A DNA stretch of 46,548 nt, from contig NBMF01000011.1 in the NCBI GenBank assembly GCA_002084825.1, forward strand, positions 1 through 46,548, in the 5' to 3' direction. Shown piece by piece: positions 7,457-46,065 of the stretch. A program made the position numbers and the translations under genes. The notes under the pieces were generated by a model. It searched no databases, was not told the origin of the DNA, and saw nothing but the letters and a program-made list of their open reading frames with translations. Each line of letters starts with the position of its first letter. Position 1 is the stretch's first letter. The DNA comes from Fusobacteriia bacterium 4572_74. GTDB lineage: Bacteria; Fusobacteriota; Fusobacteriia; Fusobacteriales; Fusobacteriaceae.

Positions 7457-9028
7457 ATGAAAAAAAAAATAATAAATACTACAAAAAATTTTTTCTTCTC
7501 TCTTTTATTTATTATGGTTGTCACCTATATAGGTTCATATGCATTAATTGTTATACCGACATTAAAAAAAGTTAAAAATGAAAGACACAAACAAAACATA
7601 AATAAACTTATTTCAATGACATCACAAGAATTTGATAGCCTTACTGCGATACTGCAAGATAATGCTCAATGGGGAACACTATATCAGAAAATGGATGGAT
7701 CTTCGAGTAAGGAAGAGAATCAAATTTTTTTTAAAGACCTATTTACAGAAAATTCATTAAATCTCTTTGGTTTAGATTATATAGGAATCTACGATACTAA
7801 ACAAAATGAAATAATTAATTATTCTATTTCTGGAAAAAATGTAAAAAATGCTATATCATTGAAAGGTAAAAAATACTTTTTTAGTAGTCAGACAAAAGGA
7901 AAAAATCGTGCCAAAATAGTCTCTGGATATATAGATATAAATAAAAAAGCCTATATGTTTTTTTCTCATATGATTTTGCGAAATGATGGTTCTGGAGACT
8001 TTGTTGGATATCTTTTATTTTTTGAAGAAATAGATAAAAATTATATATCTGATTTAGAAATAAAAAATAATTTATCATTAGAGCTTTATATTCCAAATGA
8101 AAATGATGGTGAATTTATAAAAAAAATTATTACTTATAGAGAAAATTCAGATTTTTATTCTGAAAAAAAAATAAATGGGAAAAGAGTTTATTATGTACCT
8201 TATATGAAAAATGTTCATGAAATAGCCTATATTATAAAGGTGATAATTGATGATAACATTTATGATGAATATCTATTAAGTTTTTTAATTGGGTTGATTC
8301 CCATTATAATTTTAGTTTTATTTATTATTTTTATGAAAAATAGATTAAATGAAAAATTAGTTGATCCTATTATGTCACTTTATAAACATATTGTTTCTGT
8401 GAAAAAAAATAAAAAATATGAATTGTTGAAATATCCCAGTGTAGAAAATGAAATAGATGAAGTTATAGAAGTATTTAACAATCTTATGATTCAAATAGAA
8501 GAACAAAAAATTGCTTTAGAAAAACTAGCTTATATAGATCATTTAACAGGGTTAGCTACAAGGAGATTCTTAGATGAAAAATATGAACTCTTATTTCAAA
8601 GTGCAAAAAGAACGGAAAATATATTAACTCTCATAATGATGGATATAGATTTTTTTAAAAAATATAACGATAAATATGGTCATCTTAAAGGTGATGACGT
8701 TTTAAAAATCATAGGAAAGCTTTTAAATGAAACTTTTAAAAGAGAAGGAGATGTAATAGGGCGATACGGTGGTGAAGAATTTTTGGTTATTTTATATCAA
8801 ACACCTTTAGAGGAAACTTTACGTCTAGCAAATGAGTTTCAAAAAAAACTAGTATCTTGTAATATAAAACATGAAGATTCTCATTTAAAAAAAATAACAG
8901 TTAGTATGGGAATAAAATGTTCTACGATTCTCAAAGATCAAAATTCTTATTTATTTTTGGAAGAAGTTGATAAAGCCCTTTATAAAGCAAAAGAAAGTGG
9001 GAGAAATAAATATATACTTGAATTATAA
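7457..9028 (+). CDS. CHASE4-type sensor diguanylate cyclase (GGEEF)
   Basis: Protein of 523 residues that should make cyclic-di-GMP in response to an extracytoplasmic signal. An N-terminal membrane helix (about 10-33) is followed by a periplasmic domain of about 230 residues with the DNAQWGTLYQKMDG pattern typical of CHASE4. A second membrane helix (about 270-292) and a HAMP-like stretch follow. The GGDEF domain starts at LAYIDHLTGLATRRFLDEKY and has active site GGEEF and an I-site REGD five residues before it, so product inhibition is likely. Same strand as the HD-GYP gene, 90 bp apart with its own GGGGG ribosome binding site. A strong terminator follows. Confidence 0.92.
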   Translation: MKKKIINTTKNFFFSLLFIMVVTYIGSYALIVIPTLKKVKNERHKQNINKLISMTSQEFDSLTAILQDNAQWGTLYQKMDGSSSKEENQIFFKDLFTENSLNLFGLDYIGIYDTKQNEIINYSISGKNVKNAISLKGKKYFFSSQTKGKNRAKIVSGYIDINKKAYMFFSHMILRNDGSGDFVGYLLFFEEIDKNYISDLEIKNNLSLELYIPNENDGEFIKKIITYRENSDFYSEKKINGKRVYYVPYMKNVHEIAYIIKVIIDDNIYDEYLLSFLIGLIPIIILVLFIIFMKNRLNEKLVDPIMSLYKHIVSVKKNKKYELLKYPSVENEIDEVIEVFNNLMIQIEEQKIALEKLAYIDHLTGLATRRFLDEKYELLFQSAKRTENILTLIMMDIDFFKKYNDKYGHLKGDDVLKIIGKLLNETFKREGDVIGRYGGEEFLVILYQTPLEETLRLANEFQKKLVSCNIKHEDSHLKKITVSMGIKCSTILKDQNSYLFLEEVDKALYKAKESGRNKYILEL

Positions 9029-21346: not shown

Positions 21347-23779
21347 TTGGTTCTCCCCAGAATTCTTCATGTAGAAATAACAGAGTTAGAGAATCAAATA
21401 AAACATGGGGAAAGATTTATAATTGTCACAAATTTCAAAGAACTTTTGGCTATCGATACTAAAACAAAGGATAAATTAGATATAAAATTTAAAGATTTGA
21501 TAAAACACTATGATTTTTTTCTACCCTGGGCAGGGATGGAAAAAGCAGAATATCATGCAGAGAATCCAGCAGATGTAAAAGCAGCAGAAAAAATGGCTAA
21601 ACTTTTTGATGAGATAAAAAAGGATAACCCAGATGAAACACCAAAGTTTATTCATGGGTTAAATATCTTTCTTTCAAGATTACTCTTTTGTTTTTTCGCT
21701 GAAGATACGGCTATATTTACAAATAGTCAATTTACAAAGGCAATAAGTTCTCATACTCAAGCAGATGGAAGTGACTTAGATAAATATTTAGAAAATCTTT
21801 TCAAAGTAATGGATACAAATGATATAGATAGAAAAGATCTACCTAAATATTTAGAAGATTTTCCATATGTAAATGGGGGGTTATTTAAAGAAATTATAGA
21901 GATACCTAAATTTACTAAACATTCAAGGCAGGCGATAATTGATAGTGGGGAACTAGATTGGTCGGCTATTAATCCTGATATATTTGGTTCAATGTTTCAA
22001 GGCGTTATCTTAGCAGATAAAAGAGGTAGTCTAGGGATGCACTATACCTCTGTCCCAAATATTATGAAGGTAATAAATCCGCTATTTTTAGATGAATTAA
22101 ATGAAGAATTTGAAGATTCAAAGGGAGATAATAAAAAATTAAATAAATTACTCATAAGAATAAGAAATATCAAGATTTTTGATCCAGCATGTGGAAGTGG
22201 AAATTTTTTGATTGTTGCATATAAAGAGCTTAGAAAGTTAGAGATGAGAATTTTTAAAGAAGCAAAGATGTTGAATATGTCAAATATTTCATTATCTAAT
22301 TTTTATGGTATTAAGATAGATGATTTTGCACATGAGATAGCAAAATTAGCTCTATGGTTATCAGAACATCAAATGAATGTAGAGTTCCTTAAAGAATTTG
22401 GAAGAACTAATCCAACCTTACCATTGAAAGAAGCAGGTGAAATAGTATGCGGAAATGCTACAAGATTAGATTGGGAAGAGGTTTGTCCTAAAAAAGAGGG
22501 AGATGAAATTTATATCTTAGGGAATCCACCGTATATTGGCGGTAAATCTCAGTCAAAAGAGCAAAAAGAGGATATGAAATTTGTATTTATAGGAATAAAA
22601 AAATTTAAAGAATTAGATTATATAGCATGTTGGTTTTTATTGGCTTCAAAATATCTTAAAGAAAAAAGTAAATTTTCTTTTGTAACAACAAGTTCGTTAA
22701 ATGAGGGAGCCCAAGTAGAGCAAATTTGGCCATTAATTATATCTAACAATAATGAAATATTTTTTGCTTATAAACCGTTTAATTGGACTAATAATGCTAA
22801 ATCAAAAGCTGGAGTTACAGTATCAATTGTAGGTGTTTCAAAGAATTATGGAAACAAAATAAAATATATATATACAAATTCTTTAAAACAGATAGTCGGA
22901 AAAATTAATGGATATTTAATTCCTGGAAATGATATATGTATATCTAAAAAAAATAAATCAATTTCAAAACTTCCAACGATGATAACAGGTAATAGTCCGT
23001 ATGAAGGTGGAAATTTAATGTTAAATCTAGAAGAAAAAAATGATTTAATACAAAGATACCCAAATTCAACAGAATTAATAAGGAAAACGTATGGAGCTAA
23101 AGAATTTATAAACAACATTGATCGTTGGTGTTTATGGATAAAAAATGAACAACTAGAAATAGCAGAAAAAATTCTACCGATAAAAGATCGAATAGAAAAT
23201 ATAATAAAATTAAGAAAAAATGGTGGTGAAGTAGCTAGAGGATTAGTGAAAAGACCACATCAATTTAGGTATACACATACAGGGGAAACATCAATACTTA
23301 TAGTTCCTATTGTCTCATCAAGTAGAAGAAATTATATTCCGATGGGAATACTCCCAAAAGAAACAATAATATTAAGTTCAGCGGCAGCAATATATGATAC
23401 AGAAGCATATGTTTTTTCTATTATTAGTTCTAAATTACATATGCAATGGGTAAAATTAACTGCTGGAAGATTAAGAGGTGATATTAGGTACTTATCAGGA
23501 TTGAGTTACAACACTTTCCCATTTCCAAACATAACAAAAAAACAAAAAGAAGAACTCACAGAATGTGTATTCAAAATTTTAGAAGAAAGGGAAAAACATA
23601 GTGAAAAAACTCTAGCTCAACTATATGATCCAGATAAGATGCCAGACGGTCTTAGAGAAGCTCATAGACTAAATGATTTGGCTATTGAAAAATGTTATAG
23701 GGAAAAACCTTTTGAGAGTGATGAGGAAAGGTTGGAATATTTATTTAAGATGTATGAGAAGATGGTGGAGAAGGAATAA
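21347..23779 (+). pseudogene. MmeI-like type IIG/IIL methyltransferase, 5'-truncated
   Basis: The frame encodes about 810 residues of a combined restriction-modification protein: a helical spacer (ENPADVKAAEKMAKLFDEIKK), SAM motif I DPACGSGNFL (about 278), catalytic motif GNPPYIGG (about 391), a target-recognition region and the conserved tail DPDKMPDGLREAHRLNDLAI. The N-terminal PD-(D/E)xK nuclease part (roughly 100-150 residues) is missing: the frame is closed by TAA at 21335-21337, the first possible codon is a TTG without ribosome binding site, and a divergent gene begins only 175 bp upstream. So the gene is probably silent; at best a nuclease-free methylase. It opens a decayed restriction locus. 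Confidence 0.8.
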
Positions 23780-23793
23780 GCCCTCTCTTTGTT

Positions 23794-23821
23794 TCTCTCC
23801 CTTTGAGAATAAAGGGAGAGA
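23794..23821 (+). terminator. Hairpin after the methyltransferase remnant
   Basis: TCTCTCCCTTT and AAAGGGAGAGA form a perfect 11-bp stem around GAGAAT, shortly after the stop codon. No T-run follows, so termination efficiency is uncertain. Confidence 0.5.
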
Positions 23822-23875
23822 AGGTAGAAATAGTGTTGTGAAACAAGGAAAAAATAAATCCTAATTTGTAAATAT

Positions 23876-23905
23876 AAAAAAAGGTCAGGGTAACTAATCC
23901 TGACC
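23876..23905 (-). terminator. Terminator of hydrophobic-peptide element 1
   Basis: Read leftwards, GGTCAGG-N9-CCTGACC is followed by seven Ts. The same stem and loop are conserved at 31058-31086 in element 2. Confidence 0.88.
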
Positions 23906-23928
23906 ATATGAGTGACTAAAAATAGTAG

Positions 23929-24033
23929 CTATACTCTAAAAAATAAAATCAAAGCTATTACTAACAGTGAAAATATATATTCTTTAGGAAGTAGCTTTAA
24001 TACTTTTAGTAAAAAGATGTAGAAATCTTGCAA
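23929..24033 (-). CDS. Hydrophobic 34-residue peptide, putative type I toxin, copy 1
   Basis: TTG-started mini-gene preceded by AGAGGTG. The peptide begins MQDFYIFLLKVLKLLPKEYI and ends FSLLVIALILFFRV: a short amphipathic segment, a Pro-Lys-Glu turn and a membrane-spanning stretch with a basic residue at the end. Copy 2 (31111-31215) differs at six of 34 positions, all conservative (Asp/Asn, Phe/Leu, Lys/Glu, Val/Ile, Arg/Lys, Val/Met), so the product itself seems selected. Size, hydrophobicity and the dedicated promoter, structured leader and terminator fit type I toxins. No homologue is recognised with certainty. It sits inside a decayed restriction locus. Confidence 0.72.
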   Translation of the reverse strand: MQDFYIFLLKVLKLLPKEYIFSLLVIALILFFRV

Positions 24034-24230
24034 ATCGTCACCTCTTTAGCCATTTAATAAAAGGCAAGAAGTTAAATAATGGTATGTCGAGTACCAATTA
24101 TTTACAGGCTATAAATAGCCACTCAGGATTAATTTTATCACATATATTAAAAAATTAATATAAAAAAGGAAACCAACTAGTTAGATTGGTTTCCTCTGCT
24201 CGACATTTTACAAAATTTCTACTTATGTAT
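24034..24230 (-). ncRNA. Structured leader of element 1 with start-codon-sequestering 5' end
   Basis: Minus-strand leader of about 195 nt. The 5' end (24222-24205) can pair with the peptide start (24019-24037) over 16 consecutive base pairs including two G-U. Next, ATGTCGAG (24206-24199) pairs with CTCGACAT (24091-24084). Inside lie a hairpin GGAAACCAA...TTGGTTTCC followed by six Ts, an ATTAATTTT/AAAATTAAT stem and GGCTATTTATAGCC. The internal hairpin plus T-run could end a short leader RNA of about 70-80 nt. Positions 24093-24125 are identical to 31261-31293 in element 2. Folding is by eye. Confidence 0.65.
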
Positions 24231-24236
24231 ACATAA

Positions 24237-24265
24237 AGTATATACAATAAGTCATTAAAAGTCAA
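24237..24265 (-). promoter_or_regulatory. Promoter of element 1
   Basis: TTGACT (24265-24260) and TATACT (24242-24237) separated by exactly 17 bp, reading leftwards. Element 2 has the same arrangement. The predicted RNA start is near 24230, only a few bases before the start-sequestering segment. Confidence 0.8.
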
Positions 24266-24327
24266 GAAAATCCAATAGAAATATGCTAATATTAAGTGTA
24301 AATTTGAAATAAAAAAGGGGGGCAAAG

Positions 24328-24684
24328 ATGCCAGACTTAGTAAGGGTAAATTATGAGAATACAGGGAAAAGTACTAGTATAAATAAGATGGGAATGAGAG
24401 ATATGCAATCTAGAGCTTATGAAGCAAGGGATGCTCAATATCTTTTATTAAAATCTCCTCCTGCATCAGGTAAATCTCGTGCATTAATGTTTTTAGCATT
24501 AGATAAATTATTTTATCAAGGGATAAAAAAAGTTATAGTTGCTGTTCCTGAACGATCTATTGGAGGATCATTTGCTAAAACAGACTTAGAATCTTATGGT
24601 TTTTTTGCTAATTGGGAGCCCAATAATAGGTATAATCTTTGCACTCCTGGAAGGATATGGTGGTCGGTTTTGTCAAACAATTAA
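24328..24684 (+). pseudogene. DEAD/DEAH-box helicase, truncated N-terminal stub
   Basis: The first about 108 residues match the start of a restriction-associated superfamily 2 helicase: MPDLVRVNYENTGKS, MRDMQSRAYEARDAQYLLLK, Walker A PPASGKSRAL and FFANWEPNNRYNLCTPG. The frame then runs into unrelated codons and stops; a full protein should continue for several hundred residues with DEAD-box and helicase motifs. A deletion has joined this stub to the GIY-YIG remnant that follows. Ribosome binding site GGGGGG before ATG is intact, so a useless 118-residue peptide could still be made. Confidence 0.82.
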
Positions 24685-26853: not shown

Positions 26854-26882
26854 TTGTTGGTATTATACTATGATATTATCAT
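26854..26882 (+). promoter_or_regulatory. Candidate promoter ahead of the purine riboswitch
   Basis: TTGTTG (26854-26859) and TATCAT (26877-26882) are 17 bp apart and end 15 bases before the aptamer. Several other AT-rich options exist. Confidence 0.45.
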
Positions 26883-26896
26883 AAAAAAATAAATCA

Positions 26897-26960
26897 ACTC
26901 ATATAAATTTGTGATATGGACAAAAGTTTCTACGGCTAACCTAAATTAGCCACTATGAGT
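26897..26960 (+). ncRNA. Purine riboswitch, guanine-type
   Basis: All landmarks of the purine aptamer are present. P1 is ACTCATA/TATGAGT. P2 is TTTGT/ACAAA with loop GATATGG. J2/3 is GTTTCTAC. P3 is GGCTAA/TTAGCC with loop CCTAAA, ready for the loop-loop contact. J3/1 is ACT, where C (26953) is the base that selects guanine over adenine. The downstream gene is a purine-nucleoside-type lipoprotein, which fits. Unusually, no expression platform separates aptamer and gene: the AUG (26955-26957) lies inside the 3' strand of P1. Confidence 0.9.
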
Positions 26961-27956
26961 AAATTGCGAGCAGTTTACTTTTTCTTGATCTTATTGACTG
27001 CTTGCGGGAAAAAAGAGGATTCTAAAAATGCCATAAATGAAGGTGTGAAAAAAGTTGATTATAAAGTAGGAATAGTACTTGGTTTAGGTGGCTTAGGAGA
27101 TAAATCTTTCAGTGATTCAGCTTATGAAGGCCTTTTGAAAGCGGAAAAAGAATTAGGAATAAAAATTAAATATGTGGAGCCTACAACTCTTTCAGAATTT
27201 GATCAATTTTTAACTGAATTTGCAGAAGCAAATTATGATCTTATAATCGGTTTGAGTTTTGATGCTGAAAAAGGTATTGAAAAGGTAGCAAAAGAATATC
27301 CAGGAAGTAATTTTGTGATTATAGATTCGGTCGTAGATCTGCCAAATGTAAAGTCTATAATCTTTAATCAAAAAGAAGGATCTTTCTTAGCAGGAGCAGT
27401 AGGGCAGATGGTAAGTAAAAATAATTCATTGGGATTTATAGGAGCGATACAGGCTCCATTAATAAAGAATTTTTATGAGGGATATGAGCAGGGAGCACAC
27501 TATATGAATCCAAATGTTAAAGTAAAGGATATATATATTGGTGGGAGTAATCCTTTCAATGACCCTGCTAGAGCAAAAGAATTAGCTATATCAATGGCAG
27601 AAAATGGTGTGGATGTTATTTTTACAGTAGCAGGCGGATCTGGTAGAGGAGTTATGGAAGCTATAAAAGGTAGAGAAAATTTATATGGAATAGGTGTAGA
27701 TTCAAATCAGGATGGAGAAGTGAAGGGAAAAATTTTGACTTCGATCTTAAAAAGAGTGGATGTATCTGTATTTAATGCAGTTTCAGAAGGATTAGCTGGA
27801 AACTTTACGGCTGGAACCATTGTTTTAGGATTAAAAGAAAATGGAATGGGAACTACTGACTTTGAATTTTCTAAAGAACTTATCGGAGAGGAAAATTTAG
27901 CTAAATTAGAACAAATAAAGAAAGATTTAATCTCAGGAAAGATTGAAATCAAATAA
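26955..27956 (+). CDS. BMP-family nucleoside-binding lipoprotein (PnrA/TmpC-like)
   Basis: Substrate-binding lipoprotein of 333 residues for an ABC-type nucleoside importer. The signal is short with lipobox LLTAC (Cys17). Family motifs include VGIVLGLGGLGDKSFSDSAYEG, GAVGQMVSKNNSLGFIGAI and DVIFTVAGGSGRGVMEA. The start is odd: the only ATG lies within riboswitch P1 and no Shine-Dalgarno sequence precedes it; a TTG at 26964 is the alternative. No ATPase or permease genes follow, so the transporter partners are elsewhere or the gene is an orphan. A terminator follows directly. Regulation by guanine through the riboswitch is strongly suggested. Confidence 0.9.
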   Translation: MSKLRAVYFFLILLTACGKKEDSKNAINEGVKKVDYKVGIVLGLGGLGDKSFSDSAYEGLLKAEKELGIKIKYVEPTTLSEFDQFLTEFAEANYDLIIGLSFDAEKGIEKVAKEYPGSNFVIIDSVVDLPNVKSIIFNQKEGSFLAGAVGQMVSKNNSLGFIGAIQAPLIKNFYEGYEQGAHYMNPNVKVKDIYIGGSNPFNDPARAKELAISMAENGVDVIFTVAGGSGRGVMEAIKGRENLYGIGVDSNQDGEVKGKILTSILKRVDVSVFNAVSEGLAGNFTAGTIVLGLKENGMGTTDFEFSKELIGEENLAKLEQIKKDLISGKIEIK

Positions 27957-31057: not shown

Positions 31058-31086
31058 AAAAAAGGTCAGGGTAACTAATCCTGACC
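31058..31086 (-). terminator. Terminator of hydrophobic-peptide element 2
   Basis: Read leftwards, GGTCAGG-N9-CCTGACC then six Ts; the same stem as in element 1. Confidence 0.88.
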
Positions 31087-31110
31087 ACGCGAGTGGCTAA
31101 AAATATATTA

Positions 31111-31215
31111 CTACATTTTAAAGAATAAAATCAAAGCTATTACTAGCAATGAAAATATATATTCTTTAGGTAATAGTTTTAATATTTCTAGTAAAAATAT
31201 ATAGAGATTTTGCAA
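31111..31215 (-). CDS. Hydrophobic 34-residue peptide, putative type I toxin, copy 2
   Basis: TTG start with a full AAAGGAGGTG six bases upstream. The peptide begins MQNLYIFLLEILKLLPKEYI and ends FSLLVIALILFFKM; 28 of 34 residues equal copy 1. Topology is a short amphipathic N-terminal segment and one membrane helix. It lies alone between deoC and an HD-domain gene, on the opposite strand to both, which is typical of a self-contained module. The upstream CACCT can also pair with the AGGTG of the ribosome binding site, a second lock on translation. Confidence 0.74.
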   Translation of the reverse strand: MQNLYIFLLEILKLLPKEYIFSLLVIALILFFKM

Positions 31216-31403
31216 AAGTTCACCTCCTTTAAAAGGTGTTAAACAAAAGGTGTGTCTAAGACCAATTATTTACAGGCTATAAATAGCCACTCATATTAAT
31301 TTTATCATACGCAAGATAAAATTAATACAAAAAGAAAAAACCAACTAGTTAGGCTGGTTTTTTCATAGACACTTTCTTTTGCAAATCTCTATAATTTATG
31401 TAT
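31216..31403 (-). ncRNA. Structured leader of element 2 with start-codon-sequestering 5' end
   Basis: The RNA 5' end (31393-31376) pairs with the peptide start region (31218-31200) over 18 base pairs with a single bulged A. The next stem is GTGTCTA (31372-31366) with TAGACAC (31258-31252), at the same place as ATGTCGAG/CTCGACAT in element 1: different bases, same pairing. Inside are GAAAAAACCA...TGGTTTTTTC followed by T5, a perfect 12-bp stem ATTAATTTTATC/GATAAAATTAAT and GGCTATTTATAGCC. The apical loop of the first hairpin contains the self-complementary ACTAGT in both copies. Confidence 0.68.
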
Positions 31404-31409
31404 AGGTTA

Positions 31410-31438
31410 ATTATATATAAATATCTGTAAAAAGTCAA
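31410..31438 (-). promoter_or_regulatory. Promoter of element 2
   Basis: TTGACT (31438-31433), 17 bp, then a perfect TATAAT (31415-31410), reading leftwards. One of the best promoter matches in the window. Confidence 0.85.
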
Positions 31439-45631: not shown

Positions 45632-46065
45632 TGTAATTCGGAGCGTCAAGCTAAACTTTTATATGTTAGTTGGTGAAAGTCCAACCTAAGTAATTTACCA
45701 TTCAATTAGAAGACAATAGGACAACATATTTAGTGATGAATATGTTGAAGCTCCCTGCGTCAGTAAGTAAGCTGTAACGGAAGTGAACAGAGCGAGCCTC
45801 GTTAAACTATTTGCAGTTGACCAACTACTCGGATTAAGTGAAGTCTGTTATTTTAAGGGGGGCTCTATCGCAAAGGGGCGTATAAAATATTAGTTTCTAA
45901 ATATGGACTAATAGAACCGACAAACTACTGATACTAGTGAATGCTTGAGAAGAAATTTAAAGGGAAAGCCGTATGAGGGAATGAGGGAAAACCTCACGTA
46001 CGGTTTGATGAGGATTGTCAGGTGACTCTAAAAGAGCACCTGCTCTTACTCTACTGACTGAAGAA
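45632..46065 (+). ncRNA. ORF-less group II intron
   Basis: The 5' part carries GGAGCGTCAAGCTAAAC and TTAGTTGGTGAAAGTCCAAC, then further domain I segments (GAAGCTCCCTGCGTCAG, TGTAACGGAAGTGAACAGAG). Domain V is at about 45966-46006: AAGCCGTATGAGG...CCTCACGTACGGTTT. A domain VI-like hairpin (AGAGCACCTGCTCTTACTCT) follows. No reverse-transcriptase ORF is present, so it could only move with help in trans. The domain V tip contains a duplicated GAGGGAAT, an 8-nt insertion compared with the usual hairpin. The exact 5' and 3' ends are uncertain. Confidence 0.75.

Follow-up and report, generated by a model that had tools for sequence, protein, structure and literature searches.

A two-copy small-membrane-peptide gene from Fusobacteriota with an mRNA predicted to be silenced by long-range folding

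Membrane-acting type I toxins are peptides of less than 60 amino acids with one hydrophobic helix and a cationic C terminus (PMC8309996), and according to a 2025 study, type I toxin-antitoxin loci had been described solely in Proteobacteria, Firmicutes, and Tenericutes before its own cyanobacterial report (PMC12390103). In the aapA/IsoA modules of Helicobacter pylori, a tiny membrane peptide is encoded by a full-length mRNA held inert by a long-distance interaction between its 5' and 3' ends, with hairpins that sequester the Shine-Dalgarno sequence and with module-specific pairing among several chromosomal loci (PMC6733600). The hok/sok systems of plasmids R1 and F produce a stable, highly folded, long-leader mRNA with joined 5' and 3' parts that is processed before translation, and the full-length tisB mRNA is inactive until 5' processing yields a translatable form (PMC4147584). 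In tisB/istR-1, dinQ/agrB, zorO/orzO, and shoB/ohsC, the antitoxins are separate, divergent RNA genes whose products pair in the leader. We found no described type I locus from Fusobacteriota in the literature searched, which consisted mostly of papers outside subscription; a type I-like element in this group would add a phylum.

Within a window of 46,548 nucleotides (the whole stretch of DNA analyzed), we identified a small gene present in two copies, as in the duplicated zor/orz locus. Copy 1 is a stand-alone unit on the minus strand (24265-23876) made up of a promoter, a leader, an open reading frame (ORF), and a terminator. The first-pass annotation of this DNA had described this arrangement correctly. 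The parts are a TTGACT-17-TATACT promoter (24237-24265), a 34-residue ORF with a TTG start and a TAG stop (24033-23929), and a final terminator (23876-23905, loop ATTAGTTAC). In a promoter scan, the copy 1 promoter was the sole promoter-like match on either strand within 23800-24350. With the +1 position placed by inference near 24230, the leader spans about 197 nt up to the TTG at 24033, in agreement with an earlier estimate of about 195 nt. Copy 2 (31438-31058, minus strand) is 76% identical to copy 1, shares with it an identical block near 24093-24125 that had been singled out for homology searches, and has a TTGACT-17-TATAAT promoter (31410-31438), a peptide ORF encoding MQNLYIFLLEILKLLPKEYIFSLLVIALILFFKM (31111-31215), and a final terminator (31058-31086). 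The limits of both units were set by homology among all copies found, which runs from the -35 hexamer to the terminator T-run between unlike flanks.

The copy 1 ORF encodes MQDFYIFLLKVLKLLPKEYIFSLLVIALILFFRV, and only this frame is open. The peptides of the two window copies are 34 amino acids long with a hydropathy of 1.49, a net charge of +1 to +2, a single predicted membrane helix, and a cationic C terminus, in line with the general criteria for type I toxins (PMC8309996). Differences between copies 1 and 2 at codon positions 1, 2, and 3 number 8/1/6 and introduce no stops, a purifying pattern. The peptide changes, once described as only conservative, are mostly but not wholly so. Neither Pfam nor NCBIfam matched the peptide, even at loose E-values, and Rfam gave no match to the element at the gathering threshold and only noise within it at a loose threshold.

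DNA, protein, and covariance-model searches revealed three more full-length copies, for a total of five in three species of one genus. These additional copies are L003 (G006:C1:955299-955681), L038 (G005:C100:8801-9182, from Fusobacteriaceae bacterium UBA2433), and the very divergent L041 (G005:C157, minus strand; covariance-model match at 8492-8636), and they answer the objection, anticipated in the first-pass annotation, that related genomes might lack homologues. The peptide sequence is conserved in four copies. L041 retains the RNA architecture described below and, of the peptide, only its hydrophobicity: the hydrophobic stretch that follows a good Shine-Dalgarno sequence is shorter (IDLLTFILKLILVIIEYIVTK) and lacks an ATG, GTG, or TTG start (minus strand near 1485), and this copy may start at AUA or AUU or may be dead. 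Frequent nonsense changes had likewise been named as potential counterevidence; none separates copies 1 and 2, although L041 lacks a standard start codon. A sixth site, L042 (G005:C122, minus strand, about 1624-1515), is a deletion derivative that keeps only the promoter to the leader hairpin H1 and then joins a downstream flank shared with L041, with the deletion ending in two T-runs. Because its -35 hexamer is weakened to TTGATT, L042 may be a relic, but this orphan remnant could still make a short leader RNA.

Elsewhere among the 98 Fusobacteriota genomes searched, nothing convincing turned up, plasmids and phages contained no match by DNA or protein, and viral contigs contained no match to two exact patterns. 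When a terminator pattern was run against 85,000 species, the matches were the two UBA2433 copies and two others in unrelated organisms, the latter taken as chance. Weak covariance-model matches in other Fusobacteriota (L046-L079) and in the same genus (L102-L111) were also obtained, and the top-scoring ones were individually rejected; these had nothing in common with the element beyond a terminator-like or AT-rich hairpin, or they belonged to a different multicopy structured repeat, GGTTTCTCTTTGACATCGTAATTTTCTTATAACTATAAGAAAATTTCGTACTCGTCAATCGAGAAACC, that occurs in several species of the genus (G000:C77:3305-3428 [L077], L049, L102, L105, L106, and L110). Protein matches with E values of about 0.3 in G006 and G007 had stops in the matched frame and lay in unrelated sequence.

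In all five full-length copies, the RNA 5' end can pair with its own start-codon region over 16-19 bp (P1). The silencing arm of copy 1, GTAGAAATTTTGTAAA (24207-24222), is complementary to TTTGCAAGATTTCTAC (24019-24034), which lies across the TTG start, and the corresponding strands of copy 2 are TATAGAGATTTGCAAAAG (31376-31393) and a segment across its start codon (31200-31218). The 16-bp copy 1 duplex that had been proposed at the translation start held up well, with an energy of -24.1 kcal/mol compared to -7.5 ± 2.4 kcal/mol after shuffling of the 5' segment and with none of 2,000 shuffles as good. Across the five copies, energies lay between -19.3 and -24.1 kcal/mol, compared to null means close to -7, and at most 1 of 2,000 shuffles was as good. 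In a matrix of self and cross duplex energies, four copies had their minimum on the diagonal, and the fifth tied with its near-twin, copy 2. Copies 1 and 2 paired with each other's start regions at -12.6 and -15.2 kcal/mol versus -21.5 and -24.1 kcal/mol for self-pairing, suggesting at least partial insulation between the two modules, a specificity that resembles that of the aapA loci.

Three further long-range contacts were found. P2 joins a second 5' segment to the loop of the leader hairpin H4 (24073-24104 in copy 1 and 31240-31272 in copy 2), creating a pseudoknot, and exists in three versions: ATGTCGAG (24199-24206) with CTCGACAT (24084-24091) in copy 1, GTGTCTA with TAGACAC in three copies (31366-31372 and 31252-31258 in copy 2), and GTATCTAG with CTAGATAC in L041. 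P4 connects the leader to the 3' untranslated region (3'UTR) over 10 bp, with TGAGTGGCTA in the leader (24116-24125 in copy 1) facing TAGYCRCTCR in the 3'UTR (TAGTCACTCA, 23909-23918); the copy 2 strands lie at 31284-31293 and 31090-31099 (TAGCCACTCG), and L041 pairs CGAATGGCTA with TAGCCATTCG through compensatory changes. In copy 1, the 5' strand of P4 overlaps a local hairpin, H3 (24107-24120), and the two are mutually exclusive. The third, K, is a kissing contact between the H1 loop UAACUA (24178-24183 in copy 1) and the terminator loop UAGUUA (23896-23891; also contained in the copy 2 terminator), which in L041 becomes UAACCA with UGGUUA, again by compensatory changes. P4 and K were first spotted on the four closer copies and afterwards held in L041. 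Together, P1, P2, P4, and K bind both RNA ends into one pseudoknotted body.

Whole-transcript folding gave z-scores of -7.3 for copy 1 and -9.8 for copy 2, with none of 100 shuffles as good. A covariation count detected two-sided changes in 11 of 53 pairs from six helices, compared to a shuffled mean of 3.5 (0 of 500 as high) and to 0-2 when the partner strands of the same pairs were slid. Over the six helices and five copies, 95.5% of the cells were paired, with a covariation score of 0.211 versus 0.126. The alignment behind these counts was assembled by hand from the five copies, and all of its segments occur in this order in the actual sequences. Assembly by hand leans towards the proposed structure. 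P1 was left out of the 53 pairs because of a bulge and was evaluated by energies instead. Since the five copies are related by descent within one genus, independent covariation events are few, and much of the signal comes from copy 1 and L041. As the pairing sites co-change in every intact copy found, comparative evidence indicates that the folding is real and the RNA structure unusual. An RNA with four co-evolving long-range contacts joining both ends would offer a compact model of toxin-mRNA silencing, and compensatory mutation of the predicted pairs could probe the mechanism directly.

Accessibility predictions indicated how this fold might control translation. The start codon had a predicted unpaired probability of 0.00 in the full-length RNA of all five copies, 0.61-0.84 after removal of the 5' segment or of the leader through H1, and 0.59-0.86 when the 3' end was removed as well. 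Removal of the 3' end alone left the start codon paired, in a nested model that cannot represent P4 or K. In the same predictions the Shine-Dalgarno sequence was largely paired in a local hairpin, which in copy 1 encloses AGAGGTG (24040-24072); because of this local hairpin and because the start codon lies under the RNA 5' end, the AapA type of Shine-Dalgarno sequestration by the 3' end does not apply here. Since loss of the 5' segment frees the start codon in these predictions, activation is expected to come from 5' processing, which matches tisB, and by analogy to hok and AapA (PMC6733600), the 3' contacts P4 and K perhaps guard the fold. An untranslatable full-length RNA, as had been claimed, agrees with the predicted accessibility and with the cognate P1 of the five copies, evidence that is computational and comparative. 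A full-length mRNA whose fold blocks initiation is a frequent, though not general, trait of type I systems. Silencing by RNA structure is thereby well supported by sequence comparison and modeling.

From these data, we infer the following order of events. In the full-length RNA, P1 would cover the start codon, P2 would bind the leader-hairpin loop, and P4 and K would tie the 3'UTR to the leader and the H1 loop to the terminator loop, leaving the transcript inert and stable. The start codon would be exposed once processing cut away the 5' segment or undid the 3' lock, and the peptide would then enter the membrane and harm the cell. More tentatively, part of transcription may end at H1 to yield a leader RNA of about 67-79 nt with the same three pairing segments, which could silence processed mRNA in trans as an antitoxin made from the toxin's own promoter. 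Each copy is probably a self-contained small-membrane-peptide gene that, like type I toxin-antitoxin loci, keeps its own mRNA untranslatable through folding. A type I toxin-like function is, on balance, the most likely reading by analogy, considering the 34-amino-acid cationic hydrophobic peptide, the stand-alone and multicopy unit, and prophage-like or restriction-modification surroundings. Of the first interpretation of this locus, the silencing by RNA structure stands, and the toxin part is proposed by analogy.

By the tests made, the element is outside the hok, aapA, tisB, and Fst families. It shares with aapA the tiny membrane peptide, a predicted inert mRNA with contacts between its 5' and 3' parts, and the sequestered Shine-Dalgarno sequence. 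In this element, however, it is the 5' end that covers the start codon, P4 and K bring the 3'UTR and terminator to the interior of the leader, the leader of about 197 nt contains a terminator-like hairpin, no conserved antisense promoter was found, and the peptide is unrelated. The long, folded leader and joined ends recall hok/sok, but there is no Hok Pfam match, the contacts differ, and no mok-like ORF of at least 20 amino acids starts on the sense strand of the copy 1 leader. Unlike tisB/istR-1, dinQ/agrB, zorO/orzO, and shoB/ohsC, the element has an unrelated peptide and shows no divergent RNA gene. Peptide size, hydrophobicity, and cationic C terminus resemble those of Fst/Ldr and TxpA/BsrG, from which the absence of any Pfam or NCBIfam match separates it. 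The resemblance to hok and aapA noted in the first-pass annotation, which also applies to TisB, extends to the logic of the lock and not to peptide family or architecture.

H1 (hairpin at 24197-24165), absent from the first-pass annotation as were the three further long-range pairings, resembles an intrinsic terminator: a 10- to 13-bp hairpin followed by a T-run (24162-24197 with loop CTAACTA in copy 1; 31329-31363 in copy 2) that a terminator scan called in four of the five copies and that is visible with two stem mismatches in the fifth. RNA ending at H1 would be 67-79 nt long (about 67 nt in copy 1) and would hold the segments for P1, P2, and K; its predicted cofolding with the remaining mRNA was favorable by 7-17 kcal/mol, as expected given that the same pairs form in cis. 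Type I loci normally have a partner antisense RNA gene, and none is conserved in the five copies: the promoter scan that recovered the sense promoter in all five found no conserved, sok-like antisense promoter and none at all in copy 1. The leader RNA is therefore the best available antitoxin candidate, as a hypothesis. Its three segments match the start codon, the leader loop, and the terminator loop, and thus one promoter and one strand would encode both toxin mRNA and silencer. We regard it as conceivable, although on the unlikely side, that early termination at H1 lets the toxin gene make its own antitoxin, a leader RNA of about 70 nt that silences the full-length mRNA; such action in trans is hypothetical, as in the intact mRNA the arms already pair in cis. 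If confirmed, this self-contained one-promoter design would be one not described in the literature searched. It is similarly doubtful, and slightly more so, that the locus is a classical one, with an antisense or divergent RNA, hidden from the promoter consensus, that acts on the processed mRNA and with the folded transcript as its ordinary inert precursor. Hok, AapA, and tisB do pair inert full-length mRNAs with separate antisense RNAs (PMC6733600, PMC4147584), the consensus used may not fit Fusobacteriota promoters, and single copies carry antisense promoter-like sites (in copy 2, TAGACA-18-TATAAT at 31366-31395 on the plus strand), but the counts of these sites are not clearly above those in shuffles, and no site is common to the five copies. 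That the short leader RNA is itself the main product, with the peptide mRNA as a read-through form, seems very improbable: a hairpin with a T-run stands at H1 in every copy and the truncated L042 keeps just this part, but the ORF, Shine-Dalgarno sequence, and 3'UTR are conserved under selection, and the leader is complementary, as far as is known, to its own downstream mRNA.

The peptide itself might instead be a nontoxic regulator, such as a stress or respiratory accessory protein, with translation gated by a thermosensor or a processing switch. Membrane proteins of less than 50 amino acids are often not toxins, the mutually exclusive H3 and P4 are switch-like, and sequence conservation in four copies goes beyond the needs of bulk hydrophobicity alone. 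We nevertheless find this explanation improbable, since the retention in L041 of only hydrophobicity and RNA architecture is more easily explained by a membrane-perturbing peptide and since scattered multicopy units in varied contexts, one of them on a prophage-like contig, are typical of addiction modules. A degenerate nonautonomous mobile element, structured for transposition and not for gene control, has the least to commend it and is highly improbable. The homology does have sharp ends, and an 18-bp palindrome that occurs in close pairs in the genus, AACAAATAAKAATTTGTT, brackets the G006 unit in two inverted copies (G006:C1 955273-955290 and 955691-955708; L112). However, the unit ends are a promoter and a terminator, compensatory changes preserve pairing at the start region, the ORF is under purifying selection, and copy 2 has no more than a degenerate trace of the palindrome, which is not seen at copy 1.

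For the favored type I toxin-like reading, the genomic surroundings fit a mobile addiction-type module without proving one. Copy 1 lies a short distance downstream of a type IIG (MmeI-like) restriction-modification gene (21347-23779), to which it is convergent, the L041 contig carries an S24-type phage repressor and is prophage-like, and a phage-integrase-family gene is located about 2 kb from the G006 unit. A broken helicase-like ORF at 24328-24684 also lies beside the MmeI-like restriction-methyltransferase gene, and a decayed defense island around copy 1 is possible. The palindrome AACAAATAAKAATTTGTT, with few occurrences per genome in the genus, was additionally found in G005:C157, G005:C122, G006:C2, and G007:C3, frequently in inverted pairs that enclose small segments at a spacing of 290-1116 bp, once exactly this element, and is possibly a recombination site or the end of a small mobile cassette. 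Elsewhere in the window, Rfam matched only a purine riboswitch (26879-26975, plus strand), just upstream of a lipoprotein/BMP-family-like gene assigned by eye (26955-27956), and, near the window end, a group II intron (45667-46054, plus strand; RF02003 and RF00029).
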